Shown: in pieces, positions 1 to 63,197 of the stretch
Position numbering within the stretch: the stretch's first letter is position 1
How the letters are laid out: every line of letters starts with the position of its first letter
NCBI GenBank assembly: GCA_963920665.1
Contig: OY987273.1
Location: 1,738,501-1,802,500 of the forward strand
Origin: Straminergon stramineum
Taxonomy: Eukaryota; Streptophyta; Bryopsida; Hypnales; Calliergonaceae
Reading direction: 5' to 3'
DNA: 64,000 nucleotides
Notes under the pieces: model-generated
Databases searched by the model: none
Told to the model about the DNA's origin: nothing
What the model saw: the letters and a program-made list of their open reading frames with translations, nothing else
Program-made: the position numbers and the translations under genes

Positions 1-29
1 TTGTCAAGTTGTTCAGCCAAACAACCATG
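1..29 (-). mobile_element. hAT-type MITE, terminal fragment at window edge (copy M3)
   Basis: Read on minus, the first 29 bases begin CATGGTTGTTTGGCTGAACA, closely matching the terminus of the MITE at 43905-44266. The rest lies outside the window. It cuts the methyltransferase-like exon of unit A just after its acceptor. The expected 8-bp target duplication on this side would be bases 30-37. Confidence 0.75.
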
Positions 30-13590: not shown

Positions 13591-13604
13591 GCTCACATGC
13601 TAGC
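13591..13604 (-). repeat. Terminal inverted repeat of unit A (transposase-gene side)
   Basis: Reads GCTAGCATGTGAGC on minus, identical over 14 bp to 49923-49936 and to the minus-strand reading of 63184-63197. Confidence 0.8.
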
Positions 13605-14838: not shown

Positions 14839-14945
14839 CTAGGGTTGTTCCGACGGAAAATTCAACAACATGACGAACACGATGTCCAACATATCAAGTA
14901 GACCCTCTTGTTCGTCTAATAGAGTTAAACTTAGCTTTGACTTTT
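14839..14945 (+). mobile_element. hAT-type MITE, truncated (copy M4)
   Basis: Matches the first about 105 bases of the MITE at 43905-44266, including GGTTGTTC at the end, ACGAACACGATGTCCAACA and the TTGACTTT block. The 3' two thirds are missing. It interrupts the methyltransferase-like fragment to its left. Confidence 0.65.
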
Positions 14946-23654: not shown

Positions 23655-25900
23655 ATGCCCCCACCTACGATAGCTTTGGACCCGAACTCGCCCCCCACCA
23701 ATAGTCACCCCCATTCCACCAAATTGGGCTCAACAACACCAAGACCTGAACTCGCCCCCCACCAACAATCGCCCCCCATTCCACCAAATTCGACTCAATA
23801 ACACTACGACCTGAATTTGCCCTCCACCAACAATCGCCCTCCATTCTACCAAATTGGGCTCAACAACACCAAGACCTAAACTTGCCTCCACCCGCGGTCG
23901 CCCAAGACCTAAACTTGTCCCCACCTACGGTTGCTAAGGACTTGAACTTGCCCCCACCAACAAACGCCCTCCATTCCACCAAATTATGCTCAACAACACC
24001 AAGACTTGAACTTGCCTCCACTTGTGATCGCCTAGGATCTAAACTTGCCCCCCATCTGAAGTCGCCCCCCATTCCCACAAATTGGGCTCAACAACACCCA
24101 AAAGTGCTCACCCCCACCCACGATCGCCCAAGACCTAAACTCACCCCCCACCAACAATCGCCCCCATTCTAGCAAATTATGCTCAAGAATACCAAGACCT
24201 AAAATCACCCCCACTTGTGGTTGCTAAGGACTTGAATTTGCCCCCCACCAACAATTGCCCCCCATTCCACCGAATTGGATTCAACAACACCAAGACCAAA
24301 ACTCACCCCCACGCATGGTCACCTAGGACCTGAACTCGCCCCCCAACCTATAGTCGCCTTCCATTCCACTAAATTGGGCTCAACAACAACAAGCCCTAAA
24401 CTCGCCCTCATCCGCGGTCGCCCATGGTCTGAACTCGCCCCCCACTTGTAGTGACCCCCCATTCCACCAAATTATACTCAACAACATCAAGACTTGAATT
24501 TGCCCCCACCTATGGTTGCCTAAGACCTGAACTCACCTCCCACCTACAATCGCCCCCTATTTCCACAAATTGGGCTTAACAACACCCAGAAGTGCTCACC
24601 CCCACCTACGGTCACCCAAGACCTGAACTCGCACTCCACTCGTAGTTGCCCCCCCAATCCACAAAATTGGGCTCATCTACACCAAGACCTGAATACGCCC
24701 CTCACCAACAATCGCCCCCCATTCCACCAAATTGGGCTCAACAACACTAAGACTTTAACTCGCCCCCACCTATGGTTGCCCAAGACTTTAACTCGCTTGC
24801 TACTCGCAATCGCCCGAGGTCTGAATTCACCCCTCACCAACAGTCGCCCTCCATTCCACCAAATTGGGCTCAACAACACCAAGACCTAAACTTGCCCCTA
24901 CCCGCGGTTGTCCAAGACCTAAACTTGCCCCCACCAATAGACACCCCCCATTCTACCAAATTGGGCTCAACAACACTAAGACCTAAACTCACCCCCCACC
25001 AACAATTGCCCCCATTCCACCAAATTATGCTCAAGAACACCAAGACCTGAACTCGCCCCCACTTGCAGTCAAGGTTGTTTTGTTGAATGCATTTTGGGGT
25101 TCAGGTGTCGAGTTGTTCGTCTGATGTTGCGTGTCATATAAGACGAGTGTTGCATACGCTAGACAATTTTGTCAAAGAAAGCCTTATCCTAGTAGTATAG
25201 ACAATTTGAAATCTCCCTTTATTTATGATCCATAATTTAAAATGTAATAAGTGATTATTAAATTGAGACACTTCAATAAAATGAAATTCAAATATGTCAA
25301 GATTGGAAATAGAAAGTGCTTTATTTGAAAGTCAATCTTAAGTTGACTTTATTAGACAGATAAGGGGGTCTACTAGACGTGTTGGATGTCGTGTTTGTCG
25401 TGTTGTTCGGCCGAACAACCATGCCTACAGTCTCTAAGGACCTGAACTCGCCCCCCCATCTGCAGTCGCCTACCATTCCCACAAATTGCACTCAACAACA
25501 TCTAGAAGTGCTCACCTCCATCCACGGTCACCTAAGACTTGAATTCACCCACCACTCGTAATTGCCCCCCAATCCACTAAGTTGGATTCAACAACACCAA
25601 GACCTGAACTCGTCCCCACCTACAGTCGCCCCCCATTCCACCAAATTGGCCTCAACAACACTAAGACCTGAACTCCCCCCCATCCATGGTCGCCTAGGAC
25701 CTGAACTCCCCCCCCACCTGCAATCGCCCCCCATTCCACCAAATTGGGCTCAATAACACCAAGACCTAAACTCACCCCCCCACCCGCAGTTGCCCCCCAT
25801 TCCACCAAATTGGGTTGAACAACACCAAGCCAAAAGCCCACGCCCCCACCCGCGGTCGCTAAGGACCTAAACTTGCCCGCCACTCGTAGTCGCCTCTATT
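23655..25900 (+). repeat. Minisatellite array, about 65-bp unit, C-rich on plus
   Basis: Units run from GACCTGAACTCGCCCCCCAC through CAACAATCGCCCCCCATTCC and ACCAAATTGGGCTCAACAAC to ACACCAA, with a period of about 65 bp. Variants insert a CGCGGTCGCCCAAGACC segment. About 25-30 degenerate units are present, split by a MITE at 25070-25423. The many proline-rich reading frames inside are by-products. The sequence type is that of the TCGCC patches upstream of nearby genes, so it looks like an amplified version of one. Confidence 0.8.
25070..25423 (-). mobile_element. hAT-type MITE, full length (copy M2), inside the minisatellite
   Basis: 354 bp, reverse relative of 43905-44266. Termini are CAAGGTTGTTTTG and, on minus, CATGGTTGTTCGGCCGAACA. 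Flanking 8-mers CTTGCAGT (25062-25069) and CCTACAGT (25424-25431) match at 6 of 8 sites, both differences being transitions. That fits a decayed 8-bp target duplication. No coding capacity. Confidence 0.8.
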
Positions 25901-30352: not shown

Positions 30353-32537
30353 ATGGTTGGTTGGGATGAGGGGAGGAGGACTACCATTAATGATACGAAG
30401 AGAGCCACGAAGGAGTGGGACCCTTGGTTGCTTGTAGACACTAACTATCAATTTGCAGGAAATACACGAACATGTGCTTTCTATAGGTGGATCTCTGTGT
30501 TTGTACAAAAGTGGGCATTCTATCACTTTGGATTTGGCAGCAGGACTGCATCGGAGCGATGTAAAAAAATCCCATGGGTAGTATCGCAAAATTTTAGGAC
30601 TTTTGGTGGGGTTGTTCCGAAGGAAATGAACTTTGAACAAATGCATGAGGAGGTTCCAAAATTTGATGTTGTGGATGAGACTGTGGTAGAGCCTATGTTG
30701 GAGGGATATAGGGAGAGGTTAGAGGAGCCTAGTGCTACGAATGAACCAATGCTTCATAGTACAAATTCAGTAGATTCTACTCCTTAAACAATTTTGAGAA
30801 GGAAGAATAACCCTTCCATTTCTAAGCAAACTAGCATGGATGAGGCATTACAAAGTAGCACAAGAGCGAAGTTTGATACCATGTGGGCTTCCTTCTTTTA
30901 TGAGGCTAGCATTGTGTTCAATGTTGCATGCTACCCTACCTTTGTGAAAGTAGTGAAAGAGACAGCAACATGAAGACTATGGTACCAACCGCCCTCATAC
31001 AATGCTTTGCGTACAAGAATGATAAAGCCAAAGAAGGAAAGTGTTTCTAAAATGGTCACTAAGCGGACAAAGCACTCTATCGAAGTTTATAGAGCGACTA
31101 TTTGTTCGGATGGTTGGTTTGATACTACTAGCTGTCCATTATTGAATTTAATGCCCGTGTGTCCTGTGGGGGATGTGTTTCTTGGATCGGTGGACACCAT
31201 GGGGGAGAAGAAGGACATTGCATACACAATGAATATGATGGCACAATACATGGAAGAGGTTGGCCCCAAAATCATTGTCCAACTATGTACGGACAATGCC
31301 GTTGTCATGACGGGGACTTTGAAGGCGTTACAAGAGAAATATCCTTACATGTATAGGCAAGGATGCACAACACACATTTTCGACTTGCTTTTGGAAGACT
31401 GGGCAAAAGACAGCAAGGTGAAGAAAATAGTACTATGTTGTACACAGATTGTAAAGTGTATCAAGAGGTACCATTCCACATTAGCTCTCTTCTGGAAGTA
31501 CCCCCCGGACAAGGCATTGCAAATGCCTTCTAAAACATGCTTTGAAATGAACTTCCTCATGATATTGCGTGTGGTGGAGTGCAAGTCAACATTGATTCGA
31601 GTGATAATGGACAAGACATATGTGCAATTTGAGGCTAGTTTGGAACATCGCCAAAATGGAGATATATTGAAAATGCGAGCTTGTATAGTGCGGGATGACA
31701 TTCATTCGGAATCTTTTTGGGTGGAGTGTAATAATTTTTTGCACATGGTGGAACACGTCCTTATTGCTCTCCAAGTGTTTGATGGGAAAGCCCTAGCAAT
31801 GCCTAAGGCTTGGTTGGTTATGAAGACTCTTCAAGAGCACATGAGGAACTTGAGAAACGAACCTTTTTTTTCTGAATGATGAAACTATGACGAAGTTTGA
31901 GAAGCAGTTCAAGGCTCATTGGAAATTGATGCTCATAGACCTACACTATGCAAGGGCACTCTTAAATCCTTTCTTGAATGAAGTAGGAACCCTTTGTAAG
32001 GATGGTGTGGCCAAAAGAGCCTTAAATCGGGTACTTCAAAAAATGAGTGAGTCATTGGGATTATCATTCATGGAGGCACTGGAGGAGCTCACACAGTTCA
32101 AAGAGAAGATAGGCCCTTTTGACCCCTTACAAGAGGCTCTTGATATTATACAGTGTAAACTAATGTCTCATCAATGGTGGAATCTTGTAGGTGCTAATAT
32201 TCTCCCAAAAATTGCAATGAGAGTTCTATCTTTGACGTGCTCAACATCATCATGTGAAAGGAATTGGAGCATGTATTTGTTTGTGTACAATAAAGTGCAA
32301 AATTGCCTAACCACATCAAAGGTAGAAGTATTGGTGTATATCTACAACAACAATAAACTTGAATGTGAGAAACATGGATGCAATCCTACAATGTTCTATG
32401 AAAAGTACCTTGTGGATGGAAATACCTTGGAAGAGAATGAGAAGCCATTAGCTACAGGATCCTTGGGGGATGGCGACCTAGTAAGAATGGCTCGAGCTGA
32501 TGAGAATGTTAGGCTGGTAGAAGAACACCTACGTTGA
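30353..32537 (+). pseudogene. hAT-superfamily transposase (DUF659-like core, dimerisation domain)
   Basis: One frame runs from 30353 to 31879 with stops at 30785 and 30973. After a frameshift in a T-run near 31865 it continues from 31887 to 32537. Domains: a degenerate BED-like finger (WDPWLL, GNTRTC, CKKIPWVVS); a linker with SMDEALQSS; a DUF659-like core with ICSDGW, VFLGSVDTMGEKKD, KIIVQLCTDNAVV and THIFDLLLEDW; and a C-terminal hAT dimerisation region (LTCSTSSCERNWSMY). hAT transposases cut and paste DNA with 8-bp target duplications. Terminal repeats for this copy could not be located. The two stops and the frameshift make it inactive, but decay is mild compared with its neighbours. It could have mobilised the hAT-type MITEs in this window, but no shared terminus shows that. 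Confidence 0.85.
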
Positions 32538-32679: not shown

Positions 32680-35600
32680 TTCTAGACTATTGTTGCAAGC
32701 CGAGATTATCCGTTTTACCAACTTAAGCTCTCTCTTCATCTCTTTTCTCTCTTTCTGGATTACTACCTTTCCAGAATCCAATCCAAATCCACTCTTATCT
32801 AGAATCTGGATTCGTCTCTTCACACACAAACACTAGTTTTTGGTACCTCTGTTTGACCCTCAGAGGGTCCGCCTTTGATTGTATAGAGGGGTAGGGACTC
32901 ACCACTCGTAGTCCTCACACACTCTTCTCTCTCTAAACTTCACAAAACACTTTTAGACCAACTATTGCACTAGATCAAACCAGAAACACTCTCACAACTT
33001 TCCGAATGGCCAATCCAAAAGGTAGGTCACACAGAGCCACCTCTAGACTTTTCCACTACAATGACAAACCAACAAAAACCGGAGCTAATATAGGGATTGT
33101 AAGTCGTTTGCTAGACTGATCCTAGGGTTTGGCTGACCTTCCGATAAGTGGTATGGGGATTTCTTCCATTGGCGGTTGCTTATCTCCGCACAAAACCCTC
33201 CCAGGTATTCCGAACCTGCACCTACGTCACTCCTAATCGGATTCCCGTTCCAATGTTTTAAAGGCACTTGCTCAAGACTAAAATTTCTAGCCTAGACTAC
33301 GTCACAAACGTTCCTCACAAATTAGATCCAAGTCCCCTTAGATCCGAATTCCTCCTTTCCTCCTCCTCTCTTACTTATACACACTTACAAGACAACACCG
33401 GAAAGTTGGATATACGACAAATCAAATCCTAATTGTCCACTTAGTGGCTCTGATTAAAGAAAAGATGACCAAATACAAATTATAATGCTAGGATGGAATG
33501 AGAGGGCAACAAACTTGCCCCTCACTTAAAAACTCAAAATAACCAAAGCCCAAAAGGCCAAAAAGCCACCCAGAAATCCAAGTGCCCAATCACACACTTC
33601 TTGAAAACCCCAGAAAAGTCAGATCCTATAAATCCGAAACCCGAGCCCAAGCCTGGAAACCTGGATCCGATTCAAAATTCAAATTCTAACTATCTACATT
33701 CTAACTACTTCGCCTTTCGCACCTTCTTCTGACTTCTCCTGCCTTGACTTACTGGTGCCCAAGTAGATGACCTTGGAGTTGCTCTCAAAGTTGCCTTTAC
33801 CAGAGTCATCCTCAACGTTGCCTGGGTTTGGATCTTCCAGATTTCTAGAGGAGAGTATTCCCCTTCCATGTCCTCCTCTTCATCTTCAGATCCAATCCGG
33901 TACTCCTCTTCCTCAGATTTCTCAATCTGAGTGATCTCCCTATCGTCTTCTTCTCCTAGAGATGTCTCATCCAAAATAATGGTGTCCCTCTCCTTCCTCG
34001 GTTGTTGTTGCAGCATGTGCTCAAAACATTCTGGATAGGTTTGGGCCGAATTCAACAGTCCTCTGATCTAATTCGCTAGTTCACCCTGGGTTTGTAACCA
34101 AGGTGTCTGAAGTGGCTCCTTCTCCGGAAGACGAAATGTCGGGACAGGTGGCAAGACCATAACCTCCGGAGGCACTAACTCTTGTGTTGCTTCTAGCTGC
34201 TTGGTTGGTTCTTGTGTTGTCTTCACGCTTCCCCGAATTGTCTTCTCGAGCTATGTCGAGAAGGACTCTGTAGAATGCTGGAGAGTCTCCCTAGGGACTT
34301 CTAGTCTAGACAGTAGTGGCATTGATGATGTCAATTTCACCAGAGTCTCCGTGTCAAAGTGGATTTCCGGAAAGTTGGAGAAATCCATGACACAGTCTAG
34401 ATTAATCCGTCCTAGCAACTCGCGCATCTCCTTCAAAGTAGACTCCATTCTTGATGAGAAGTCTACCAAGATCCAGATCACCTTGGATCCGGTGAGATGT
34501 CCTTCTACAAGCCGGTTTTGCACGAGAGCGACCTTCACGATTAGGTCTGCCGGCTTGTCCACCAACCTGGATAGGTTCTTAACTAGCTGCAGGGCTTCTT
34601 TCTCCCTTTACTTTGATGTGGCCAACTCCCCTTGAGCCCAGCTCAACATGGCTTGAAGGTCCGTCTTCTCTTTCTCCAAGCCTTCAATCTGCTTCTCCTC
34701 CCTCTTCAGTGCTTCTGGATTCGGAAGTTTCTTCAAAGCGTCGAGTATGTCTTCCGGCTCTATCCTCAACTCCTTGCTGATCCTCTTGAGCAGATCCACC
34801 AAGTTCTCATGGTACTCTTGAGCTTGTAGTACCTAGTTGAACCCGATTTTGAAGAATCCGGATATGCCTCCTTCTTCCATTGGAATCTTTTCTTGAGTCA
34901 AAAGCTTCCCTCGTGAAGCTGGATTGGTGGATTTCCTCTGCCCCTGATCTAGGAGCTGCTCCTCTTCTTCCAGATCTTCTTCCTCCTCAATTGGCAGCTG
35001 CTCTGCCTCTACTTCCTCTGTGAGGACGTACTATAGGATGGTGGATCCAATATTATACTCTACCATTTCCGTGTCACTCAGAAGTTCTGCATGATGGTAG
35101 AGGTGGAATAGATAAGGACCAATGGGGCTGGTCTTAGCCTTCTTGACGTTTGCGACAAGCTTGGAGACTACTGCTCCAATAACTTTGCCCCAATTGACCG
35201 GACTACCCTCCATAGCATGAAAGATGTTATTAGCTACCGTAACCGTAACCTGAATAGGCTTTTCCGGATACAAGATAGGGATCAGAAATTCTAGGACTTA
35301 CTTCTGCCTTGCATTTGGACAATCGCTGATGGCATACCCTTCCTTAGAATGGGCTACATTCCTAAACTTTCCTACTGCAAACTTATCCGTTCGGGAGGCT
35401 AATCCAGATCCCTTTTTGAGGAATCCGTAAACCTTGGCCCAGACCTCGTCAGTCCATGTTCCGGGTTGCCCTCTTACTGTCAACTCATACTAATTCAAGG
35501 CACCTACAATAAGCTCCTGAATCATCCTATCATTCTTTACGGTCCATGGCCTCAAGAACAGGCCAACACACCCTGTCTCACTCTGATCATCCTCTAGTTG

Positions 35601-35990
35601 TGACTGCTCTCTCAGCCTTTCTAGAATGGTCGAAGAAACCATCCGCCCCATCACCAACAGTTTTCGAATATCCCCCTTTGCCATTGCAAACTAAAGACTA
35701 GACCGAGATTTAGACAGTCAATAGTTCCTGAAACAATGACTAACTCACCACTCTTTCTCTCAACTATATGCACACAAAACAGTTGTAGAAAAAAGAGGAA
35801 GAACAAATGAGAGTGGCGGGGTCAAGTACCCGTCATCTTACCGACCGTTCCTGAAGCGGACCATTTACCCGTAACGGATCTCTATTTTCCTAGACCAGAA
35901 CTCTAGACCATAGGCTGTCGCTATCCGGATTTCTGGAATCCGGTTCCATCCTAGACTCTGTTACGGAACACTTGGAGCTAGGGTTGACAA
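32680..35990 (-). mobile_element. Element X, copy X2
   Basis: Reverse-oriented relative of X1 (7975-11025). The leader (CCAAGTGTTCCGTAACAG, then ATCCGGATAGCGACAGCC), the protein frame and the 3' region (TTTGTGACGTAG, AGGGTTTTGTG, TTGTGAGAGTG) all align. X2 sequence beyond about 32970 has no counterpart in X1, so the 3' end is uncertain. It abuts the hAT gene on one side and a GC-rich patch on the other. No long terminal repeats were found. Confidence 0.6.
33705..35684 (-). pseudogene. Element X protein, copy X2
   Basis: ATG at 35684 (MAKGDIRKLLV), stop at 33705. Compared with X1 the frame is almost continuous over about 660 codons with about seven in-frame stops. Conserved core: FLIPILYPEKP, NNIFHAMEGSPVNWGKV and GPYLFHLYHHAELLSD. 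Next come an acidic run, a helical block with RISKELRIEPEDILDALKK and LEKEKTDLQAML, then FSNFPEIHFDTETLVKL, an acidic EEEEYRIGSEDEEEDMEG segment and the basic tail ending KKVRKAK. Comparing the two copies shows which stops are recent: X1 lacks several found here, and X2 keeps the Trp lost in X1. Uncharacterised. The helical and acidic layout is compatible with a structural protein. Confidence 0.6.
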
Positions 35991-37482: not shown

Positions 37483-38943
37483 CTAATATGAATGTCGGAA
37501 GTGTTCATCCGACATAGGCCAATTGAATTGGCCAGTGAACCGATTGATGATGTGGGCCAAACCACCCTGATGACCATCACCTCTTTGACAAAGCCGGTCC
37601 AAGTATTGGTGAAACACAATTCCCAATTGGTGGTGGCTAAACATGGCCATTGCATTTGTTTCCCGTTGCAATCTGTTGTAGTTCTCTAACATGCATTGTT
37701 TATTGATCCTTTGAGCTATTTTGCCAATCGCATATTCCTCCAATGCACGTGATAAATGTGGAATGATTTCCACATTTGCATCTCTTCTATGCAAATATGC
37801 AATGCTTGGATCCACCCACCACCTCCTTGTTAAAGCTTCGTTCATGTCACTTGCAGATGTGAATGTATACAAGGATTTCATTGGTTCGGTAGCTACAGTA
37901 GTCATGCCCTAATCGCAAATGCCAATGAAAACACATGATTCATCATCAGGAAAATGAAACATGATGTTGTCTGGAGAAATATCATTGTCTAGATGTCTAG
38001 CAATATGTACCGCATTCATGATATGCACCAATACCCAAGCAAGCTTGGTGCGCTTCTTCCGAAACTGAGCGAGATGAAAAGCTTTAGTCACATTGGACTC
38101 TGTTGGGTTCGAATACTATAACCAAATATATCTGTTGTCTGGATAATCGTTATCCGGGTTCAACATTTGCCGAAGTGTTTTGCCATTCCACCAATATGAG
38201 TACCCTTCAATTGTTCTTGCATGAACTGCAACAAACCGTATGACTCTTGAATGTGGAATCCTCACTACCATTGATTCATTTTGATGTTCCAACTTTGCAA
38301 GCTGAGGTTGCGTACCGTGGTGGTTGGATATCTTTGCTGTGATTTCCCAAGATGGAGCTATCTCTAGACATCCTTCAATTCTCACCCTCCGAATCGTTGC
38401 ATATCTTCCCTTCATGATTAAGCCATCTTGGGGAATCACCCATGTGGTGTTCGGAAGCACTATAAGATGACGTCTACCCATATCTAATTCAGCAATACCC
38501 TCATCGCTAGTCCACCAATCCAATGACCCTCGTCTATTACGCCTCTTTGCATATGGGGTGCAACGCCCAATAAACAATTGAGCTTTGAGAATAACTTGCT
38601 CAAAGCCTTCATCATTTGCACGGTGTTGTTTGCCGTATTTTGTGAGAACCACATCAACGTTCCACAATGCATCATGCACCTTGTTCTCCAAACATTTGTT
38701 GAAGCCCCTCTTCTCTGTCTCATGTTGCCATTGCGGACTGTATAAGGCATCCAACATTCTCTGCATCATGTCTGCCTTGAATTTGGATGGACACTCCTCT
38801 CCATATCTTACATATTTTGTGTCAAGAGATATAGTGGTTTCTAATTCATAGAATTTTGCAATGCATTTGGTCATGAATGCTTTGCATGCATCGGATGGAA
38901 TTTCCTTACTTGCCACCTCTTGTACCACTTGTTTTCCCTTCAT
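37483..38943 (-). pseudogene. Kinase-like gene K2 with atypical catalytic motifs
   Basis: ATG at 38943 (MKGKQVVQEV). A helical N-terminal part of about 140 codons is followed by a kinase-like domain: GLIMKGRYATIRRVRIEGC (glycine-loop remnant); WEITAKISN with the candidate Lys; HSRVIRFVAVHARTIEGY and WWNGKTLRQML; then AVHIARHLDNDISPDNIMF with HRD changed to DND and Asp kept. VFIGICD-stop-G follows, where K1 has DWG (TGG to TGA or TAG). The C-lobe runs on to 37483. Stops fall at the kinase hinge and in the DFG position. K1 and K2 differ greatly in sequence but share the altered motifs, so the changes predate the split. Confidence 0.6.
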
Positions 38944-39144
38944 TGCCTTCTACGATCTTGGCATTGTGATAAGTTTTTAATACCCAAAATTTGTAACTAA
39001 AACTTAGAAGTTTGCTACAAAAAATGGCAATAATGGGGCCCCCAAATAAGACTTCCACCTTCCCGAGGAGAGGAACCAATGGAGGACGAACCACCAAGCT
39101 CTCCACTCCACACTTGCAAAACGCAAGGGGCAAGGCAAAAGTGA

Positions 39145-44274: not shown

Positions 44275-44930
44275 GCTTACTTTAATCTTGTCTACAACAT
44301 TTCACATTACATTAAAATGCTTGAATCATTTTAGCACCATCCTATACATTCAATAAATGTTATAATAGAATAATGAGATAACATAATTTCTTTTAGTATA
44401 TTCATAATTTCATATCAGTGTTCTAAACTATGAATACATTTGACAACAAAAATTGAAGACACACTCCAAGTTATTATTGAATGTTCCACATTTATTTAAT
44501 GGCTCATAATAAAATGATAATTGAGGTGCTAAATCTTAAGAAAAGTTGAAACCTACATGAGTAACATACTAACATGAGTACATGACAAAGTAAGAAAGGT
44601 CTACATCTGCATTATATTGTCATGATTGCATTCCAAACTACAAAGGAATCATAGTCTTATAGGTAAAACATATTCCACACATCGCATCAATAATTTTAAA
44701 AATTCGTGCAATGTTATAAATTCAATATGTACAATTGTGGGTTGTATAATTCTGATTTTTTAGGACCCGAGATAGGGTTTAGGGTTTAGGGTATAGGGTT
44801 TGGACTTTGGAGAGCATGTTTATATGTAGGAAGGAATATCTGGAATTACCTTTTCTTCCATTAATACTACATTGGATACCTCTAGCATTCAAGAATATTT
44901 TTTGTATATGAATCTATCTTTCTCAGGATT
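44275..44930. other. AT-rich region with a short telomere-like repeat
   Basis: No gene. 44773-44801 holds AGGGTTTAGGGTTTAGGG followed by TATAGGG, about two and a half copies of the plant-type TTTAGGG repeat. Confidence 0.6.
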
Positions 44931-49922: not shown

Positions 49923-49936
49923 GCTAGCATGTGAGC
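49923..49936 (+). repeat. Terminal inverted repeat of unit B, left
   Basis: GCTAGCATGTGAGC, followed by degenerate subterminal copies (GCATGAGCC, TGTGAGTTGTGAGC, TTTGAGCC) up to about 49990 that also occur in unit A. Confidence 0.85.
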
Positions 49937-49989
49937 TTGGAGGCATGAGCCTGTGAGTTGTGAGCGTGGAGTATTTGAGCCTAGAGCCC

Positions 49990-50929
49990 CCAAAACTTTT
50001 TTGGGGCAAAAAATTGCCCCCAAATTTTTCTCGTTCATTTTTTCTCCCAAAATGGACAAAAATTTCCTATTTTTAGTGAATATTGTGACCTATGACTGTG
50101 TCCCCTAAAACCGTGGACTCTGGAATGAGTTATTTTTTATTCTTTTGAAATTGCTTATTACTATGGGAAAAGATTGTCAAATTTGATTGGAAAGTTGCAG
50201 CACTTAGTTCAATGATTACAATGGGAAATATGCTAGATGGTTTCAATATTATAGATAGATGCCATTTGGACACAACTTAGTTGTATTGTTTTCACTACCT
50301 AATTTGAATACATAGGATTTGGTGTCTGAATATCCTAGAACAATTGGGATTTTTCATGTGACTTTGTGTAGGCTAAGTAGAAAACCTCAAGGTTTGGGTG
50401 AGATGATGAATAGAAGCCATGGTGGATTTAGGATCGGCATTTGACTCGAATTTTAAGTTTTGGTGGTTAACATAATTTACAATTATAAAATTCATTTCTC
50501 TTCATAATTGTAAGAACTGCCAAAATGTTGACATCCTCCCCCAAATTGTAGGGAATGAAGAAGATAAACGAAATGTAAAAAGAAAAAACCCCGAGGAATC
50601 CAAAGAATGAGGAAATGGAAAAACTGGGGAAAAGAAAAAAACTGGGGACAAAGAAACTAAATAAAAACGGAAATTTAAAAAAATGGGAAAATGAATTGGA
50701 ACACATTGGAAGTAAAAAGACTATGAAGACGTTTTGAAAGTAGGAAAAATACTTGGAAATATAGTCATTTCTATGAATTGGCAACAAAGCACTTCACTTA
50801 TGAAACATGCTTCTATAAATAAAAAATGAATTAACATTTTCCCTCCATACACTGCAAATCATTTCAATCGCAATATACGCGAATGAATACTATGTAATTG
50901 AAGTATGCGGATAAATGTAGCCATGTCTA
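49990..50929. other. Unit B subterminal non-coding region
   Basis: Aligns in reverse with 12600-13560 of unit A, including the purine-rich block at 50560-50720 (the pyrimidine block of unit A). The open frame on minus at 50467-50787 is a by-product of this block. No gene. Confidence 0.6.
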
Positions 50930-53900
50930 TTATGGAACTGTAATGATTCCTGCTCGAACTAGGAGTACCTTCAATTCATTGAAGCTATAACTAGGTGCAT
51001 GAATGAATTTGTCTTCATGGATGTCCATCTTGCAGAAGTACCTATACAAGTAGTATAGGTGTTTGCAATTCACATATTACTGTCAACCTTCAATAGCTGA
51101 AACAACCATATTCACGAAGTTTGGGCATGTGCATTTGGGGAACATACCCACTGTAATTTGATAGATGTTTTTGTTAGTATCTGTCCTTGTCTCAAGTGCC
51201 ACTATTGCACCAAGGCCTGGGAAGGGGAGCAAGGTGACTCCTACTATTTGTCCTCTAACATTTCCTGCACTTTCCCACTTGTTCCGTTGTTCCGTAGTTG
51301 GTGCATTGGCTATCCTTCAAATGGTTCGGTTGTTCCTAACCGTTGGATATGCATCTGGGTTCTTGGGTGTTGGTTGGTCATACAAGACAATCTAGAAAAC
51401 CTTAGACATGGTGAAGAGTCGCCGTGGGGACAATGTTGGCCTTTCTTGAAGGTGGAAGCCTAGATGTTGTAGCAGTAGAGTCTCCTCCCTATTGAGGTTG
51501 GTCCCATTGAGAACGGGCCACACCTTTGGTACCTCAGGCCAATCAATGATCCACTTCCTTTTCGTACCTTTTACACATCGTTCAATGTCATCCCAACAGA
51601 ACCAGAAGTGGACCACCACCTCCTGCTTGCTCCCATAATCTTCTTTTCGGCCCCAATAGGTTGGAGTTGGTGTTCCCTTCCTTCCCCTTGCGATTTTGGA
51701 GGCACACCTCATGTTGGTGGTCCGTTGTTGAGCGTGGCATTTTGCATTGGACTTGTGGCTGATCCTAGCAATGTGCCACTTGGAGGTGTCACAGTCACTT
51801 TCAAATGTCATTGTGACATATTTAGGATTCTGGGTTTGAGGTTGTTCACCTGGACCCTCCAAAGATTGAAGAGAAGCCATTGTGGACCTGGTTCTCACAC
51901 GCGGCTGAGAGAAGTTCACTTTGTCCGGTCTATGTGAATCTCTGGCATTACCGATGGGTATGTCCAACTTCCTCTTTGTTCTCCCAAAGATTTCCTCTCC
52001 TTCCAAGTGTGGTATTCTTGTTCCCATCCCCTCTACTTTAAGCAACGTGTTCAACGCTTCTGCGATTTTCTTGGGACATCCACTTCGTCTCGCAGCTCTG
52101 AGTTTGAGCTCCCCCTTGGACGGCCCTGATCCAGATGCATGTCCTTTGAGGTATGCCCGATAGTTGGTCATTTGCATCCATGCACGAATGCTGTCATCGC
52201 AAGTTGCGTCGAAGAGGTTGTTTCCTTGCTTTCCCAACATTTGAAGCCATTTGTTGTGAACTGTTTCAAACAGATTGCAGAAAGGTAGGTCGGTCATCTC
52301 TTCCAAACTCAATTTCTACAAATCCATCCATCCATAACATAGAAGTGAGGTCATCCAATTTCATATTCGAGGGTTAATAGCCCATGTGATCATCCCAGAC
52401 TCATTGCAAATGTATGAACCTCATTTGCTTACACACCAAGACGTTCGTGAATGTAAAAATACAAAAGAGATTCTTTTCTCTACGAAGGAGCACTATAGGA
52501 GACATCTACCTTGGAGGAAAAAGACTGACATGAGATTCTCAGGAGGGGGTCCAAGAGCTCCTTCTTGAGTGGGAGTCTCTAAAAAAAGAGTAACATTTGG
52601 GAGCCTAGAACCTTCAATCGGATTTGACTAAGGTCTAGGTGCCCTATCCTTGACCTCCCATTTGGGCCCCCCCTCACATGCTCATCAATGAATTCATAAA
52701 AGGTAAAAGTAATTCCTACTAGAATATTCTCAATCAAAGTCTCCACGTACATGCCTCTAAGCTTGGAGGGTACACCTCTATTCTTCAACAACCACTTTAG
52801 ATAAAGGAGAACGGATACTTCAAAATCAACTTATGAAGTCACTTACCATAGTCATGAAGCCTCCCCATTGTAGGTATCGAAAATACCAAAAGGCTAGCCA
52901 GTGGTCCAAGTGATGAAGATCTTCTTCACTTGCAGCACCCAACGACAACCACCATGATCGAATTGTGAGGTACCGCGTCTCTGCTTCTTTGACAATCTTC
53001 GATTCTTTGTATTGTTTGCACAGGGTAATGTGTTGTTGTTGGAATGCTTCTTTGATGTGCTTTTAGGTATGCTTGTGGAGCGAACTACTCCAATGCAGCA
53101 AACACATTCTCTTGCGATTCTCCACTTTCTCATCGGGTGACCCACTTCTGTAGACAATCCGTGCCGCATTCCAATTGGCCATCGCACTATCTGCCATGAA
53201 TCCTTTGAAGTTGGTGTGTTCCACTCCATGTCTTGCCATGACCGTGTTTAGAGATCTCCAAAATTGGACTTGGATCTTCATGTTCTCCGATTGCATATTG
53301 TAGGTGGCCACGGTCATGAATTTTTTGTACTCCGCATCATACATGTGGCATGCCATGGTGCTCCACTTGTTGACACATCTGACGTGGTCAAACATTATCC
53401 ATGCGTTTTGTAAATCCCCTCTTGGTTGCATTCGTTTGACAAGGTCCACTCCACTTCTAGGTCCTTCTATGAGCATTTTGAAGAGGTAGACCTTCTCCCT
53501 TCCCTGTCCTAGGAAGACACTATCATGTATGAACTCGAACTTTGACTCTTTCTTCATTGTCATAATATTGTCGATGACCCCTCCCTTATTGTTGGAGTGA
53601 AACAATGATATGACATTCCTAATGTTCGGACTGCTTAGAAATTGGAATCGATCCATGACTTCTTCTAGTTCCTCACCCTTCAACATTTCTTTCTCCCCCT
53701 CTCCATTGTGAAACAAATAGTTCGTGAGGAACTCTTTGCTGGTGGAGAGTGCAATTGTAGAGTTGGTGGCCATGGGCGTTTTGGCCACCTGCTGTGCAAT
53801 GAGTCCCGAGATTTTCTCCGCGGAGTCTCTATACATGCCCTTTGCTACAAGGTGCATATGATTTCCGAAGTGTATAACCGCCCTAGTCATTTTTTCATTA

Positions 53901-54900
53901 TTGCAATATACGTAGTATATTCTAGCATCACATGTATTCAAGCACAGCGGGGGGCTCTTGCAAACTTTGCATACTAGAGTACAATCTTTGGGAGGACTCC
54001 CCCCTTTAGCAAAAGGACAAATCGTGTAACCAGTCCACTCTATTTCATTCATTTTGGAAGCCCTTTTTACATAATCACAATTTGGATTTTGACAAGCAAG
54101 GTGTCTGGCGCAATATGACTTACGGAACTTGAGGTTGTCGGAATTGTGAATGTTCGTGGTCATCAACTTACACCACGGGTGTCCGTCGTACCGCTTGTCC
54201 ATTCCCTCCAAGTTCTTAGTCACTGAGGAGGAGGATGTAGATCGATAAAGGGGCAATTCGAAGATGACGTCCCCGTTGAAATGAGTTGGCAAGTACTGCA
54301 CACACTGGTGCTTCACAACGTTGACATCCATATTGGATAGTTCATTCTTAGAACGCCGCACAGTCGCCAGTCTCTTCAAGCACTCCATTATGCTGACTTG
54401 TTGAGTAGGTGATGGGTGCACCAGAGGACGTGACAATAGAGATGGGGCTGGACTATTGGAGGGGATGATCTATTATGAGTGGATGTAGGCCTTTTCACTC
54501 GTCTCCAAAGAGATTGGACATTGTTGCTTTTCAAGCATCACGTTAGGTGACTCACCTTCCGATTCACTCAACAATTCTATGATGGATTCTAGTTTCTCTA
54601 CCTTCACTGACCTTAAAATTGTACTCTCAGGGAGTAGTGGGAAGCCCTCATGAGGCGATCTGGATGACACCGTGTGTGCAACATATGGCATGTCGACTGT
54701 GGAGTTATCCGACTATCAACTCCAAATTTCTGTTGAAACCCCTAGCATGGAAAGCGGAAGTCCATAAGCCCTGTAGTTCCCTGGGGCCACGTACCAGCAA
54801 TGGCCATCTCCATCTAGACTCTTGACAACCGAAATGGATTGCACCAATTTACCTAACTGGGACAACTTTTCTTCTTCAATGTAGATGGAGGACTCTACAA
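50930..54900 (-). pseudogene. MULE-like transposase gene, unit B copy (best preserved)
   Basis: Leader block (about 54900-54720, GHCWYVAPGNY). A 457-codon frame follows (54436-53063) with a Cys/His finger KSYCARHLACQNPNCDYVKR, paired Cys CKVCKSPPLC, and HFGNHMHLVAKG, a WRKY/GCM-like C..C..HxH layout. A DDE-type core comes next: MFDHVRCVNKWSTMACHMYD, TVATYNMQSE, NFKGFMADSAMANWNAARI, CLLHWSSSLHK. One stop follows the 457 codons. Further on, DHWLAFWYFRYLQWGGF precedes an intron of 531 bp (donor GTAAGT 52846, acceptor AG 52316). A 306-codon exon (52312-51392) and a SWIM finger (CTCPNF, then NCKHLYYLYRYF, CxC..CxH) complete it, with stops inside. MULE transposases cut and paste DNA and give 8-10 bp duplications. 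The family call is inferred from the SWIM plus core layout. Confidence 0.75.
52316..52846 (-). other. Intron of the unit B transposase gene, conserved in unit A
   Basis: Donor GTAAGT after GGGGAGGCTTCATGACTATG and acceptor TTTGTAG before AAATTGAGTTTGGAAGAG. Unit A has GTGAGT (7334) and CTAG (7717) at the equivalent points, with an unrelated-looking 384-bp interior. Conserved borders with diverged interiors support real splicing in the ancestor. Confidence 0.7.
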
Positions 54901-55544
54901 ATTTGAAGTGTAGGTATAGGAGGTGACTCTACAAATTTGAAGTCTAGGTGACCTGGGTTAATTATCCATCATCTATGGGAAACACAAGCAGAGCATCTTG
55001 ACCATGCACTCTAATACAAGCCATCCTCATGGAACACGGCCAGGAGGTGAGGGATGTTGAGAGGCAATGGAACTTTGGGATCAGTGAAGGCATCCAAATT
55101 CAAATGGCCTTATATAGTACCCTTTCATTTGGGCATTTAAATTTGGTTGAGCAATACGTTAAGTGCGGTTTGTATGATAATTATTCATCTTATTTGAGTG
55201 ATAAAATCCACCACTAGAGGTAGCTGTCCATTATGCACCGCCATCCAAGTATTCATTTGTTGCATGTCCGAGACCTTAGGGAAACTGAAACAGCCTCATC
55301 ATTTATTTATTGCCGTTCATTAAGTGGGTGCAATAGATTTGTCACCTATGCATTGGAAGAGGAGCAAAAATAATTGTGTCGGCTGATCTTGAAATCCCTG
55401 ACTTCTTTAATTGCCTCTAAGCGGCACATTGAAAGTTCTGCCATGAAGTAGAGTTAATACGCTTGGTGGTCCAACAAGCACAAAGGAATTTATCAAATCC
55501 ACATCGTATACCTCGATCGTAGCTCTGAAATAAGTGCATACATT
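54901..55544. promoter_or_regulatory. Presumed divergent promoter region, unit B
   Basis: Gap between the two divergent 5' ends. A TATA-like TATATAG at about 55111-55117 lies 430 bp upstream of the methyltransferase-gene frame on plus. The tandem CTCTACAAATTTGAAGT at 54893 and 54926 is a 33-bp direct repeat near the transposase start. Promoter function is inferred from position only. Confidence 0.35.
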
Positions 55545-57096
55545 TTGAGTCTCAACTTTGCCATGTCCATTTTAATTGGTGGCCATTGCATAGGTGTGGA
55601 GAGGAGAGGGAGGTTTCATGTAGAGTTCTTTCACCTTATGCTTGGAGAATCCCCAAATGCTGAACTTGTGCTTATTGACGTGAGGAGTAGAAAGAGGCGT
55701 CATAGTTTGTTTTTCTCCTCTTCCAAGGCTATAAAGAAGTCCAAGATGAACAAGAAGAAGGTAGTGTCTAGAACTTCTCAGTCTATGCTTGGAGAGCTAA
55801 GGAAGTCCCTTCGCTTTGTTGGTGGAGGGGAAGTAGTGGAGAGGATGGCCCTGTACCAAAAAATGTTGGTGGAAGTCAGGCCATACTAGAGGAATCAAGT
55901 GTCAACCAGAAGCAAGAAGAAGACAACTCCGGGGCCACTGTGAGTATTAATTCCATTTTTGCTATTTCATTGTTCTAGTCCCAAGTAACATACTCCATTT
56001 TTTTCTTGTGCAAAGGAGGTTTATGATTCCAAAAATTAGTGTGTCCAATGTGTTTGTAAAATAGAACAATTAGGAAAACATGAGATCCCATAGGGGTACT
56101 CAATCATCCTTAAAACACAGTTTGGGGCGAATCGTGGATCCCCTGAGAGAAATGAAAGATTCGTCTTTGTCGCGAGAGGAAGTCTTTTGGGAAGAAATGT
56201 AGGCTCTGATTGTAGAGAAGTAGCGAGCTATTTTTATGCTTAGGAATCATGCTCTTCATCCCTGAAATTCAGCATATAGAAAATTAAAGTATAAGGGCCA
56301 TGGAATTAATGACTTAAAATCAACAGGTAGCATTACTTTGTAGAATTTACGAAGATCAAAACATAATAGACCTTTAACATGCATGAGATACGCAGATTAA
56401 AAATGTCATCCTTTTTCTGGTCTAAGCATGGCGAAGCCCAAGTAAAGCCCCGTGAGTCCCTATGTAGTCGCGACCACTGCATGCATGGCGACAGTTTTGC
56501 ATGGCTGCATTTCCTCAATCACATTCTCGGAGAGGTCAAGATTTCGAGAAGTGCATGCTCTTTGTAAATTGAGTAAGGGGGTTGGTGGAGAGATAAGGGA
56601 ACCCGAAAATAGAGAGAGGATTGACCGACCCTACCACCTTCCCCGCCATCTATAGTTTCTCATCTCCTAGATCAAGCGCACCGAAGTTGGCTGCGGCATG
56701 GGCCACCCACCCATTCCTCCTGTTTTGAATTCGAGGATCCTCGCCACCTCGTCCTCCCCCCTAATCAATATTGTCCATCCCCCTGCACATCGCCGAGCAC
56801 CACCTCTTGGGCACAACGACCTCCCCCTTTGAAATCCCAAATCTCAAATTTGAAAGACTGTGAATTGTTTCCAAATTCTCACGCGGTGTCCACCATGACA
56901 CATGCGCAAAGGGAGGAGAGTGCGCTTGGAAAGCAAACAACACAAAGCCGTGCAAAAGATGACATGAAGGACATGGAAGGGACGTCAATGTTGTGGCCAC
57001 GCAAGCTCAGCAGCCAACAGAAGGTTCGAATTCATGCCCATTTCCACAGCACAAAATTGGCGTTGAAGCGTTGGTTGTAGAATTCTAAGATATCAT

Positions 57097-57765
57097 GGGA
57101 CCCTATGGAATCGAGAATTTTTGGACACTACTGTGGACTCATGGGGCGCAGTCAAAGGGGCCACAGTGGAGGTGACGGCCTTGCGATGCCCTCGCCGTGG
57201 CATGTCTCTGTGTCCCCAATTTTTTTGAATGAATGCGGGTCCCCTGCTGCTATGGGACGAGGTCTTGCCTTCTTGGCCACGCAAGGGATCTCCTTGCCTT
57301 TGAATTTTAGTTTCACGTGTCTCCCTAGTTGTTTGAGATTCAATCAAAATTGTTTGGGGTCCCCCTTTTGGGAGGTGGAGACACGCCTAAAGGTTCAGTC
57401 GGATTCGACTTGACTATGACAGGTGCCAGCTCCACCCCCCAGAAATGGGACCCTATGGAATCGAGAATTTTTGGACACCGTTGTGGGCTCATGGGGTGCG
57501 GTCAAAGGGGCCGCGGTGGAGGTGACAGCCTCGTAGTGCCCTCGCCGTGGCATGTCTTTATGTCCCCAATTTTTTTGAATGAATGCGGGTCCCCTGCCAC
57601 TATGGGATGAGGTCCTGCCTTTGTGGGCGCGCGAGGGATCTCCTTGCCTTTGAATTTTAGTTTCACGTGTCTCCCTAATTGTTTGAGATTCAATCAAAAT
57701 TGTTTGGAGTCCCACTTTTTGGGGGTGGAGGAGACACGCCCAAAGGTTTAGTCAGATCCCACATC
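57097..57765 (+). repeat. Tandem duplication, 350-bp unit, in the first intron
   Basis: GGGACCCTATGGAATCGAGA starts at 57097 and again at 57447, and both units run in parallel to about TTTAGTCAGATCC. They differ by scattered substitutions and small indels, mostly transitions, so the duplication is not very recent. The unit A intron has related sequence near 2040-2140 (GATTTGACTTGACTA). The overlapping frames on both strands here are by-products. Confidence 0.85.
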
Positions 57766-59163
57766 TTGGTAGTTGAACTCATCTTACATCATTTTGGTTT
57801 CAGATTTTCAAAGGACCTAGTGGATTACCATCTAGCTTGCTGCAATCAGTGACGCCTAGCATAGAGGAAGATGCTCGAGAACAATCAAAGCCGAAAACTC
57901 CTACGGATGAAGACATCAATGTATCAAGTGACTCCAAAGACAAAGGGGGCGATGAGGAGGACTTGGTAAGGGCTCAAAATATTAGAAAAGGTGCTTGTCT
58001 TCTACCTAGGGCTTTTCCAGACTCGAAGCTTAGTTGGAATACCAATTGGCCAAATCACCTGATTGTAGGATATACCTGCAAACGCATGCAGCTGGAGTTT
58101 TCCTTAGAGAGTTCTGATACTGAATTCAACTCAGAGCCATAGACGTCCATGTCCATCATTAGTCCATAGTTTGAGGAATGTGATTGTAGCGATAGTGTGG
58201 GTAGGCATGGAGAGGTCATCATTCTTTTGAGCTCGGACTCAGAGAGTGATGTTGAGATTCTTGAGGGTTGACTGGACTTGATGTCATTCTATAGTTTCAA
58301 AGTACGGTGTATTCTAAGTGTGACCTTTGAGTAAACCATATTTTGAACATCTTTTGAAATTTTATTACAAGTGTTGTTTCAATTGGTTGTTCAAGTGATG
58401 CGCTGGGTCCATTGCCGTGGAGTTTGGCTTCCATATATCTCATGTACATTTATTCCTATCCATGCCTATTTGGTCATCTTCTTTCGTGGTTGCCTTGGTA
58501 AATGGATGTGTCGCCTCTGAATGTAACTCAAGATGATAGAATTTTGGAGACACTAAGAACTGATGACACTACCCAACCTGAAATCGGAGTCAAAGAAGGA
58601 CACCCAAAGGAAGAGGATATGCTAGACGAAGAGGAGAAAGACTTATTGGAGGATGACCTACGGAGGCTGCAAAAAGTAGATTTCGTCTCCACCATCAATG
58701 TGTTGAGGATGAAGCCGGAACACATGTTTTGATTTCCGATTCCACTTTGTCGGCTTGCTGCTATGCCAATGGTGCGGCCCACTCTCTCATGCGACATGCA
58801 ATTTCTTGAGCAAGAGTTTGCATGTGGATACCGTGATAGGGCAACAGTCTTCTACGTTTCTACCACGAATGAGGTGGGCGAGATGTCATAGTTCACGGCG
58901 CAAGAGATGGATGAATGGGACCATTTGTGGAAGGAAAAGAATGTTGCATTCGAGGAGTACGTGGATTCACAGCCCACATTGAAATTCCTCAAGAACTTGA
59001 AGTTCTTCGTCTGCGACGGAAACCACTGACACTTGGCCTGGATGAATGTCATCTCCAGAATGTATTCCACAAATCCTCATTGGCACTATGCGGTAGACAG
59101 CATTATTTTGGACACCAAAGGCAAAATTGAGATTGTCATACAGGTCATGTACGACATCAACAA

Positions 59164-59276
59164 GTGAGGTCACTAATCCCGCTATCATTTCATTCTGAGT
59201 TTCAACCCTGAATTTCATGTCATGGTATACTTGCAAAATGATGTACTCAAAGCATGAACTTCTAACCACTATGTAG
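59164..59276 (+). other. Intron of 113 bp after the ParB-like exon, conserved in unit A
   Basis: Donor GTGAGG and acceptor ATGTAG. The equivalent intron in unit A (72-188, minus) is 117 bp with donor GTAAGT and acceptor ATGTAG. The flanking exon sequences align closely. Confidence 0.7.
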
Positions 59277-62200
59277 ATCTACGGAGGACTCCCAGATGAA
59301 GACGAACTTGGTACATACTTTGTACCAGGTGCAAAAGTATGGCTTGCTACCGATGGAAAGGTTCAATGACATGCTCAGGCCATCGGAGAAGAAAAAATGT
59401 GTAGCAATGCCATTGAGGAAGACATGGTACTCCATGCCGGCTGAGGTCTTCACCTCATTTGTCTTCAAGGTGAGATACACATTCTCTATATACGTGAAGT
59501 ACTCAATTGTAATCTTCTTTTGTGTTTCTGTACTTCTTGCTCTTCCAATTTTCTCACAATATACTCTTGGGACTCTACAGCAAGAGATTGCACAGGCAGT
59601 AGATGCGGCACTTCGAAGATACCACAAGACAACATCGGCTGATGAAAAGAGTGCTGAAGGAGCAGCTTAAGCCATGAGGGTAGGGGCCAAGGAAAAAAAC
59701 ATGAAGCTGTACATGAAAATGATCAAGTTCCTGACAATGGCCAATCCTGCTCATGGGGCGGGCTTCCTTGAAGAGGTGAGTCCTCATGTTCATGAAATCA
59801 TGCCAATAAAGTATCTAGGTTTAGATCTACCTATACAAACATGACTCAATTCATTTGTGGTAATGCAGGTGGAGAGGCATTGGAGCTCCAACGAGGTGCC
59901 AGAGATGACACTGGAAAAATTGCAAATGGTGGCCACGTGCAACACCACAATAGAGCACAAGGTGAAGTTCTTGTAGTGGTGGAACTCTTCCATCCCATCT
60001 TGTGATGCGAGGAAGTTCCCAGCCAGGCCCATCTCCAAAACACACCTTGGCCCTTTCTTCAACAAGTGTGTCTAGTTTGCGGGGGTAAGTGCCTTAACTA
60101 ACTTCATTTGTTGATTTCCACAGTTTCGTTATGACAATCGATTATAACATGTCTGAATTTGTAATGTCTCTTTATTCTTCACGATGGACTGAAACTAATT
60201 ATTGTGATCATCAATTCGTATAGCTCGAAGATGCCTCAGTGGAGTACTTCGAGGCAGTCGTCAAACAAGACAACATCAAGATCGACAGGAAGGTCCCACT
60301 CCAACCGAAAACCTTGGAAGAGTACATCGAGGGATGGAGGAAGAAGAACTGGGACCAAGGATTCCATCTTTACTTGAAAGGAGGAAATTATTTCAAGAAA
60401 GGGGATTCCTTTACGAATTCTGAGGGGTCCAACTTGGTGGTTAGGAAGGTTCTCTACCGGTATGTTTTTAGACCTATGAGATTGGAATCGATTTGGCAAC
60501 GACTCATTTCTTCAAATTTTGATGTCTGCATGCTAAAACCCTTGAGAACATCTACTCCTATCACATTGAATGTGATGGAGTGTGGATGGTTGCGAAACTC
60601 AATTGCATGTGTTGAGCTCGTAGACATAATTGTAGTCATGTCTCTAATTGCCTAGAATGATTGATTCTTCTTTCCATAACTATTTCAAGTATGAGCTCGA
60701 AGCAAAGGGTGCCATCGAAAGGAAAGACTTGCCTCCCTTCCTCACATCATGGTTGGACCTAAGCTCAGAGGACTGCATGTTCTCAACAAACCAGCCGCGC
60801 ACATTTACCACGGCTCACCTCAGTGGAGGAACATGGTACTTGGATTGTGCACCGACATTCACTCATCCGTCCAAGGTGCAACTGCGAGCATCGTTGGATG
60901 GCAAAGGGGCCATAGATTTGAATGTGGACGAGTTCGCAAGAATGACGGATAGGCAAAGGAAGAAGGCCATTGTGAGGAGGGAAGCTAATGACCGAAAAAA
61001 GGAAGTCCGTTTTCAAGGCCTTCTCACCGCCAAGGAGAAGAACGAAGTGGAGGGACTTGCCAAGATGGCGGAGAAGGAGAAGGAGATGGAGAAAGAAGAG
61101 AAGGCCAAGGCCAAAGGGAAGAAGAAGGTCGAAAGTGATAGCCAAGTTCTAGCATCCTCTACGGTGGATTAAGGCTCCGAGCTATAAGTCGTATCACAAA
61201 GTGGAGTGAAGAGGAAGGCCACCTTCTCACAACTCACGGAGGAGGTCATCACTCATGTGACAAAGGCAATTGTCCTTAGTGACGACGAGTTGGCCAAGTC
61301 TGAGAATCTGATTCTCAACATCTCCATTGACGACTTGGTGGATGAATGGAGTCCAAGACAAAGACATGCTACAAAGAAGTCTTGGACTTCTTGAACAAGG
61401 TTTGCATGTCTCATTTGGATTTGAAAATAGGGTCATAAGTTCTCATTCAAATGGTTGTACTTTGAGTTCATTTATCGTCATTATAGGTTGCACTATTCCT
61501 TAGCAGGTGTCGGCAAGGAAACCATCCATGTTCCATGGTGTCCCTAAAGCTAGGCTAGGGGTGGATGTCATGTTCTTTGACTGTCTGGAGAACTTGCCCG
61601 TGCCTAGGTTGTCTTCTCCGCCACATGAGGTGCCAGAATGGAACAAGGACGTGGGAGATGAAGCTCTATAGCGAGTGTTTAGCTTTACTTCCAATCATCT
61701 CCAAGACCATGGTTGCATTATAGTCTTCCATTCATGGAGTGCCAAAGCAAATTCGGATATTGCAAGGTTGTGTGAAACGTATGACATGGTGAAGAAGAAG
61801 GAATGGATGGGGATGAACCGCATGCACTTGACCTCAACTATTGACAAAACCAAGACAGTAAAGTGCATTCCATTTCTACAATTCCAAATGGCAATTTCAC
61901 ATGCATTACTTTCATCGCATTGCTCATGATTGTACACCAATTTTGGATGATTGTGCAGACACAAAAATTTGGAATCACCTTGGTCGTGAAGGCCTTGGGC
62001 ACAAAAGGGAAATCCAATTTCTCTTTCAAGCGCACTACCACAATGGTGAAGGCTGGTGTCGACATCGCACAAGACGACATGTTGATGAACTACACCCATC
62101 TAGATGATATGGCCATGGATGACAAGAAGCCTTAGCATGGGGCTCGTGAAAAAGATCCACGGTTCTTTCAAATCCTCCTTGAAGCTACCAACGTCAAAGG

Positions 62201-63183
62201 AGATCTGATTCTTGACTACACTGCATCCACAGGTCAATATTCAATAATACTACTCTACCTTCCAATTGTAACCAAACTACAATTTTAGTCTCTCATATTA
62301 TATTTTTAAATTTCCATGCCTATAGGTGCATCCATTGTCGCTTGTCATGGCACAGGCTGCCACGTTGTGGCTTTGGAGGAGAACAAAGACATCTTCGAAG
62401 CCATCTTCAAACCCATGCGGAAGTCCACTACGGCCAAGGAAGTGACGCCACCTCCTCCAGCAATTGCAATTTCGCAAGATCTGCATGCCATGCCCGTGGT
62501 GCCTCGCAAATTCATTCGGAAGGGAAAATTGAGTAAGTAAGTAGGCACTTTTTTAATTTTCTTTGTACATAATGCCTTCTACTTTTCAAAACTCTAACAT
62601 GGTGACATTTTTGTTTGCAGTCATCGAAGATTGATGTCACCTGATCCAATGATGAAGAAACAAAGTCTTCTATATAGTTTGGAGAAGACATACAAGCTTC
62701 TAGTCTATGCCAACCAAATGGCAACAACCTTTGTGGATTTTGGTTGCTCCAAACCAAAACGCCATAAAGACACATACACTCTAAATGTCTTACAATTCAT
62801 AGATGGGTCTGCATCTGAGGGTAGAGAGTCTTCAGATTCGTCCAAGTCTTCCGAATCCGTGACTAACTGCATTACGACTTAGACTCATGAAATTGACATA
62901 TCTCATGAGTCATGCTATTGCGTATTGTTTTCTATTATGATTGGATTTGTGTGTTTTATGGCTATATCTTTGACATGCGTTCTTCTCATTCTTATTTTCT
63001 ACTGTAAGAATTTCATCTATGTGAAATACATTTTGTTGTGGAAAACCCTTCAATCAAAAAAGGGGGTAAGCGCTTAGAATTTTGAAAAATAAACTCTACA
63101 TTCTATGCACTTTTTACTTTTTCATGTCCATGGTCATAGGTCCCTCAGCCATTTTTTCTCGCAAAAAAATTTCCTACTCATAG

Positions 63184-63197
63184 GCTCACATGCTAGC
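63184..63197 (-). repeat. Terminal inverted repeat of unit B, right
   Basis: Minus reads GCTAGCATGTGAGC then CTATGAGTAGG. The 14 bp are identical to 49923-49936. Confidence 0.85.

Follow-up and report, generated by a model that had tools for sequence, protein, structure and literature searches.

Contig OY987273.1 of the Straminergon stramineum assembly GCA_963920665.1 contains, within the 64,000-nucleotide stretch analyzed here (positions 1,738,501 to 1,802,500; hereafter the window), the remains of a transposon with two divergent genes. An earlier note on this DNA had described a Mutator-like element (MULE) transposase gene lying head to head with a ParB plus N6/N4-methyltransferase gene, enclosed by identical 14-bp inverted termini around 13.3 kb, and had placed the same gene pair a second time at 1-13604. 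The termini were recovered exactly, two divergent multi-exon genes were borne out by tblastn and, for the second gene, by a phase-consistent model of ten exons, and the assignment of the two genes was supported. At the second site, the transposase and the ParB part were found in the same relative order, as far as that copy can be seen, while a methylase part, if present, would lie beyond the window. The 13.3-kb element is called copy B in the following, the second one copy A, and a further, truncated second gene copy C:

49923-63197: copy B, a MULE-type element of 13.3 kb with exact 14-bp inverted ends, the left of which is the boundary of the A-B homology
49923-49936, plus strand: left terminal repeat of copy B, GCTAGCATGTGAGC
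63184-63197, minus strand: right terminal repeat of copy B
50933-52315, minus strand: 3' part of the copy B transposase, with a candidate catalytic E (CNLFETVHNKW) and a SWIM-type CxC...CxH motif
52832-55024, minus strand: long exon of the copy B transposase, with N-terminal domain, Cys/His region and RNase H-like core (tblastn; start ATG by reading)
58502-59163, plus strand: second-gene exon with the ParB-like domain, motif DGNH-stop-HLAW
59277-59469, 59581-59775, 59869-60084, 60224-60459 and 60656-61399, plus strand: middle exons of the second gene
61507-62536, plus strand: N6/N4-type methyltransferase domain, in exons 61507-61857, 61959-62232 and 62326-62536 (PHROGs, Pfam, profile)
62621-62882, plus strand: final exon of the second gene
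1-13604: copy A, cut by the window start, in opposite orientation to B, with a terminal repeat at 13591-13604
~5283-7834 and 11381-12573, plus strand: transposase of copy A
26-852 and 1083-1334, minus strand: second-gene pieces of copy A
7974-11017: unrelated 3-kb repeat inside copy A, 77.6% identical to 35976-32954, inverted
14101-14840, plus strand: copy C, the truncated 5' part of a second gene, 74% identical to 58019-58755 (tblastn)

The long exon of the first gene, which in copy B carries stops and a frame break near its 5' end, belongs to a protein family (P0001) with 202 relatives. The top three Foldseek matches of the P0001 model were all ISCth4, which we take to be of the IS256/Mutator type. 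In copy B, the RNase H-like core shows one D in WIMFDHV and another in FMADSA, and these two residues are kept at 62/63 and 63/63. The candidate catalytic E was seen in copy B and in the relative L001, and the SWIM-type motif was read as CTC...CKH in copy B and as CSC...CKH in L001; copy A reads YKH. No match of the transposase to Pfam SWIM was obtained, and the Cys/His region is GCM-like in the structure model of a relative. Judged by the fold modeled for its family, the first gene encodes a Mutator-type DDE transposase, and it carries a SWIM-type motif. L001 (1-4101), a 4.1-kb contig from a cyanobacterial bin, was the sole locus from the search of prokaryote genomes with a transposase alignment; it encodes a relative of this transposase in two long open frames, the counterpart of the 3' part lying at 2118-3548, and the contig is probably a eukaryotic contamination of the bin. 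The N-terminus of the transposase resembles TDP-43, Raf-RBD and DIX domains.

The second gene of copy B fits a single model of 3,344 nt with GT-AG introns, the first intron position of which was found again in the relative P0191; a frameshift lies within the exon 60656-61399. The protein search with the ParB exon yielded 543 relatives, and relatives read DGNHR at the site where copy B is interrupted by a stop. A ParB-N fold with a DGxHR-type motif was found in the protein family, and the best Foldseek match of the ParB model had an E value of 0.12, which is weak taken alone. When the read-through protein of the entire second gene was compared with 5.8 billion proteins, none of 5,897 candidates reached an E value of 0.001, a result probably due to such genes being represented there by single exons; exon-level queries did match.

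The methyltransferase domain was seen in copy B alone, the visible stretch of copy A reaching no further than the ParB part. Its exons match methylases in PHROGs, and in a tblastn search 25 of the 30 matches listed were annotated methylases (122 records) with E values of 0.1 to 7, each of them weak singly; the others listed were four thymidylate synthase or dihydrofolate reductase regions and one portal protein. A phage methylase profile aligned to the domain over model positions 37-233 in a comparison with shuffles, which control for composition only; the profile was built from seven phage proteins among the domain's own tblastn hits and is thus biased towards a match. Pfam N6_N4_Mtase scored 12.8 bits, under its cut-off of 26.7, at model positions 164-220 of 221. 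The motifs follow the order of the beta class, with the motif IV region ahead of motif I and the AdoMet (S-adenosylmethionine) motif towards the C-terminus, and it is the motif I region that matches phage methylases best. At the sequence level, the similarity to methylases appears remote but specific. In the second gene, an N6/N4-type methyltransferase domain thus follows a ParB/sulfiredoxin fold, and the fusion protein of working relatives would have ~1,100 amino acids.

Within the window, GCTAGCATGTGAGC occurs exactly at 49923-49936 (plus strand), 63184-63197 (minus strand) and 13591-13604 (minus strand) and at no other site, and with up to two mismatches four matches were found versus 0.19 expected. 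A 14-bp inverted pair is by itself little proof, because shuffled windows also hold such pairs (a mean of 16.5 exact ones in 20 dinucleotide shuffles; the real window has 446, and many of the excess pairs probably come from tandem repeats). The ends of copy B are nevertheless convincing, because the left end is fixed independently by the A-B alignment: when the regions 49.9-52.1 kb and 11.4-13.6 kb are aligned by BLAST, the homology breaks off 7 bp outside the 14-mer (49916/13611), and with the left end given the reverse complement of GCTAGCATGTGAGC was found in 0 of 200 shuffles. The right terminus, which matches the terminus on the transposase side, ends 315 bp after the second gene's stop codon. 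Short GTGAGC/TTGGAG-like subterminal repeats, read by eye, follow the left end of copy B to ~49985, and a matching array with a period of 14 is present in copy A at 13556-13597 (Tandem Repeats Finder). Terminal repeats of 14 bp are short for a MULE and equal the lower limit of the range (14-421 bp) given for one MULE clade in PMC6446971.

Of copy A, one end and the transposase are visible, and from its second gene the ParB exon with some pieces that precede it; its transposase and second-gene segments share 66-78% nucleotide identity with those of copy B. Stops are found in both genes of both copies; A and B are old, dead transposon copies. In the ParB exon, the proportion of silent differences between them (pS) is 0.77 and that of replacement differences (pN) 0.15 (214 codons; Fisher p 3e-39), while the respective values are 70% and 24% for the main transposase exon (573 codons) and 45% and 15% for the C-terminal part of the transposase (427 codons). 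In the ParB exon the divergence is nearly all silent, which shows strong purifying selection, and the transposase exons, too, were long under purifying selection before the copies died. Copies A and B look mosaic: in the C-terminal part of the transposase (11381-12573 against 50933-52126) the silent divergence is 0.45, and in the other two exons tested it is 0.70-0.77, a difference suggestive of exchange among lineages of the element. The second genes of B and C differ by 50% at silent and 19% at replacement sites (82 codons). Between the two genes of copy B lies a tandem duplication (57095-57404 and 57445-57757, 89%).

Linkage of the two genes elsewhere was studied with lists holding 120 of the 202 transposase relatives and 120 of the 543 ParB relatives. 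From these, 70 transposase and 47 ParB rows on contigs of at least ~9.9 kb were compared, shorter contigs being excluded, and a shared contig was deduced from the equal size of the relatives' longest contigs. By this measure both families have members on at least eight contigs, including one of 15,646 bp (P0067 and P0166) and one of 38,454 bp (P0088 and P0151). In viral contigs, neither the transposase nor the ParB exon nor the methylase part had a relative, searches of PDB by sequence and of NCBIfam returned nothing credible, and searches for Rfam families and tRNAs returned none.

The best explanation of these findings, which we hold to be likely, is a MULE that in its working form has divergent genes for two proteins, namely a DDE transposase and a ParB-N6/N4-methyltransferase fusion, the latter presumably serving self-modification of the element. 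Guided by its ParB-like part, the fusion protein would bind the element's own DNA, with the short subterminal repeats as possible sites, and would add N4-methylcytosine (4mC) or N6-methyladenine (6mA) to it. Such a modification would most likely tune the expression or transposition of the element, or evade host silencing. Should working copies indeed mark themselves in this way, plants would have transposon-written 4mC or 6mA and hence a direct, testable source of these marks, the presence of which in plants is disputed. Given how many relatives both exons have, it should be possible to find young copies and to test them.

Several observations, given here with the rival explanations, weigh against this reading. 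Within the second gene, selection and linkage were seen for the ParB exon only. Furthermore, the catalytic motif of the methyltransferase domain is unrecognizable: canonical methylase motifs are DPPY and DPFAGS, and the frame of copy B, a single decayed copy, reads DCLE in place of the former and DYTAST where the latter is expected. Together with the Pfam score below the cut-off, this favors the main mechanistic rival, namely that the domain is catalytically dead throughout the family and that the protein is a sequence-specific DNA-binding regulator resembling VANC, which is not known to be a methylase. However, since copy B is decayed the loss of the motifs may be recent, and the motif I region still matches phage methylases best; we regard a dead domain as unlikely, albeit deserving real weight.

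Further objections concern the association of the two genes. One of the three second-gene copies in the window, copy C, lies outside the visible ends, starting ~500 bp beyond the end of copy A, and no transposase belonging to it was found within the window. On other contigs the linkage is patchy, as 39 of the 47 ParB rows are without a partner among the members listed, and on contigs below 20 kb only one of five ParB rows has a partner among the members listed. Moreover, the distances of the two proteins are uncorrelated over the eight contigs plus A and B (rho -0.02). These results would be expected if the ParB-methyltransferase gene came from another mobile element nested in or beside the MULE and the pairing were loose and modular. 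Against this stand the relative order shared by A and B as far as A is visible, the matching right terminus of B so close behind the second gene, and the agreement of gene distances on short contigs, where a subset of three contigs below 100 kb plus A and B gave a rho of 0.88 (4/120 permutations), this subset having been chosen afterwards. Copy A may also have inserted into an older copy of the element, which would explain copy C. We read the linkage as real with some reassortment; the data also allow a loose association, and an origin of the gene in another element appears rather improbable.

It is highly improbable that the 14-bp ends match by chance and that the right border of copy B lies elsewhere. 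In favor of a chance match are the inverted pairs present in shuffled windows and the lack of a clear target duplication, which in MULEs measures 8-11 bp, the 9-bp candidate for copy B having 5/9 bases alike (p ~0.05; the copies are old) and other sizes of 6-12 bp being no better; it is countered by the absence of any match to the independently fixed left end in the shuffles. Least credible of all is a passenger gene of host or viral origin, caught by the MULE in the manner of Pack-MULEs and devoid of a role in the element, since, although MULEs often acquire host gene fragments (PMC6446971), the gene is multi-exon across both domains, the past purifying selection on the ParB exon between A and B argues against a passenger, this exon has its hundreds of relatives, and a similar gene is reported from another transposon class (PMC12477816).

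The giant transposon Sola1-1_Ec32 of Ectocarpus is reported to carry a 1,104-aa ParB-N4/N6 methyltransferase gene opposite its transposase (2025, PMC12477816), and green and red algal cases of such accessory genes are cited there (Iyer 2011; Petroll 2025). Likened by description, the second gene of copy B corresponds to that of Sola1-1_Ec32 in length, domains and orientation opposite the transposase; however, the latter element has a Sola1 transposase and resides in a brown alga, whereas the present one is Mutator-type by fold and probably from a plant. The VANDAL MULEs of Arabidopsis likewise possess an accessory protein, the sequence-specific anti-silencing protein VANC (PMC10398659), which acts on their own epigenetic state as is presumed for the present one. 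MuDR families of oomycetes that encode a SET histone methyltransferase are likewise MULEs with a chromatin-modifying enzyme (PMC6446971, PMC12730594), but this enzyme modifies histones, while the domain found here is of the DNA-methylase type. Fungal DNA transposons with a TET/JBP dioxygenase likewise carry a DNA-base-modifying enzyme, which oxidizes 5-methylcytosine (5mC) rather than performing amino-methylation and is not a ParB-methyltransferase fusion (PMC12730594). N4CMT of bdelloid rotifers is likewise a bacterial-type amino-methyltransferase in a eukaryote, but this captured gene includes a chromodomain, and the 4mC that it deposits serves to silence transposons (PMC8885841). In the main text of a MULE survey (PMC6446971), which lists SET domains in oomycete MULEs, the word methyltransferase is absent, and a literature search that covered listings and selected passages, with subscription papers mostly outside its scope, met the pair in PMC12477816 alone and found no MULE or plant transposon with a ParB-methyltransferase gene. 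The statement of the earlier note that no plant transposon with this pair has been described holds narrowly, insofar as no MULE or plant case was found, but the same kind of gene is already in print for an algal Sola1 element; new here is its presence in a MULE, probably of a plant.

More tentatively, the ParB-methyltransferase module could serve for self-marking, and eukaryotic DNA transposons unrelated to one another, such as the brown-algal Sola1 element and the MULE described here, could have gained it in parallel or swapped it. It would write bacterial-type 4mC or 6mA on the DNA of the element as a private epigenetic mark outside the host 5mC system; we consider this possible but doubtful. 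Finding the same accessory module with transposases of two superfamilies would argue for the repeated recruitment of one strategy.

Besides the element, the window holds several other features. The 3-kb repeat is present in two inverted copies (7974-11017 and 32954-35976) with an open reading frame (ORF) at 8505-9119 that has no Pfam match. Remains of a hAT-type transposase at 30974-32537 comprise DUF659 and a hAT dimerisation region in two ORFs. A decayed kinase-like ORF lies on the minus strand at 20480-21163 (Pkinase E 2.4e-5, under the cut-off), and another minus-strand ORF at 38119-38946, without a Pfam match, resembles it by eye. An interstitial TAGGGTT array of 4.1 units, the Arabidopsis-type telomere unit, was found at 44773-44801. 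The introns, the hAT remains and this array are in keeping with a plant host. GC-rich degenerate tandem arrays, whose units measure about 65 and 98 bp, occupy 23679-25853.
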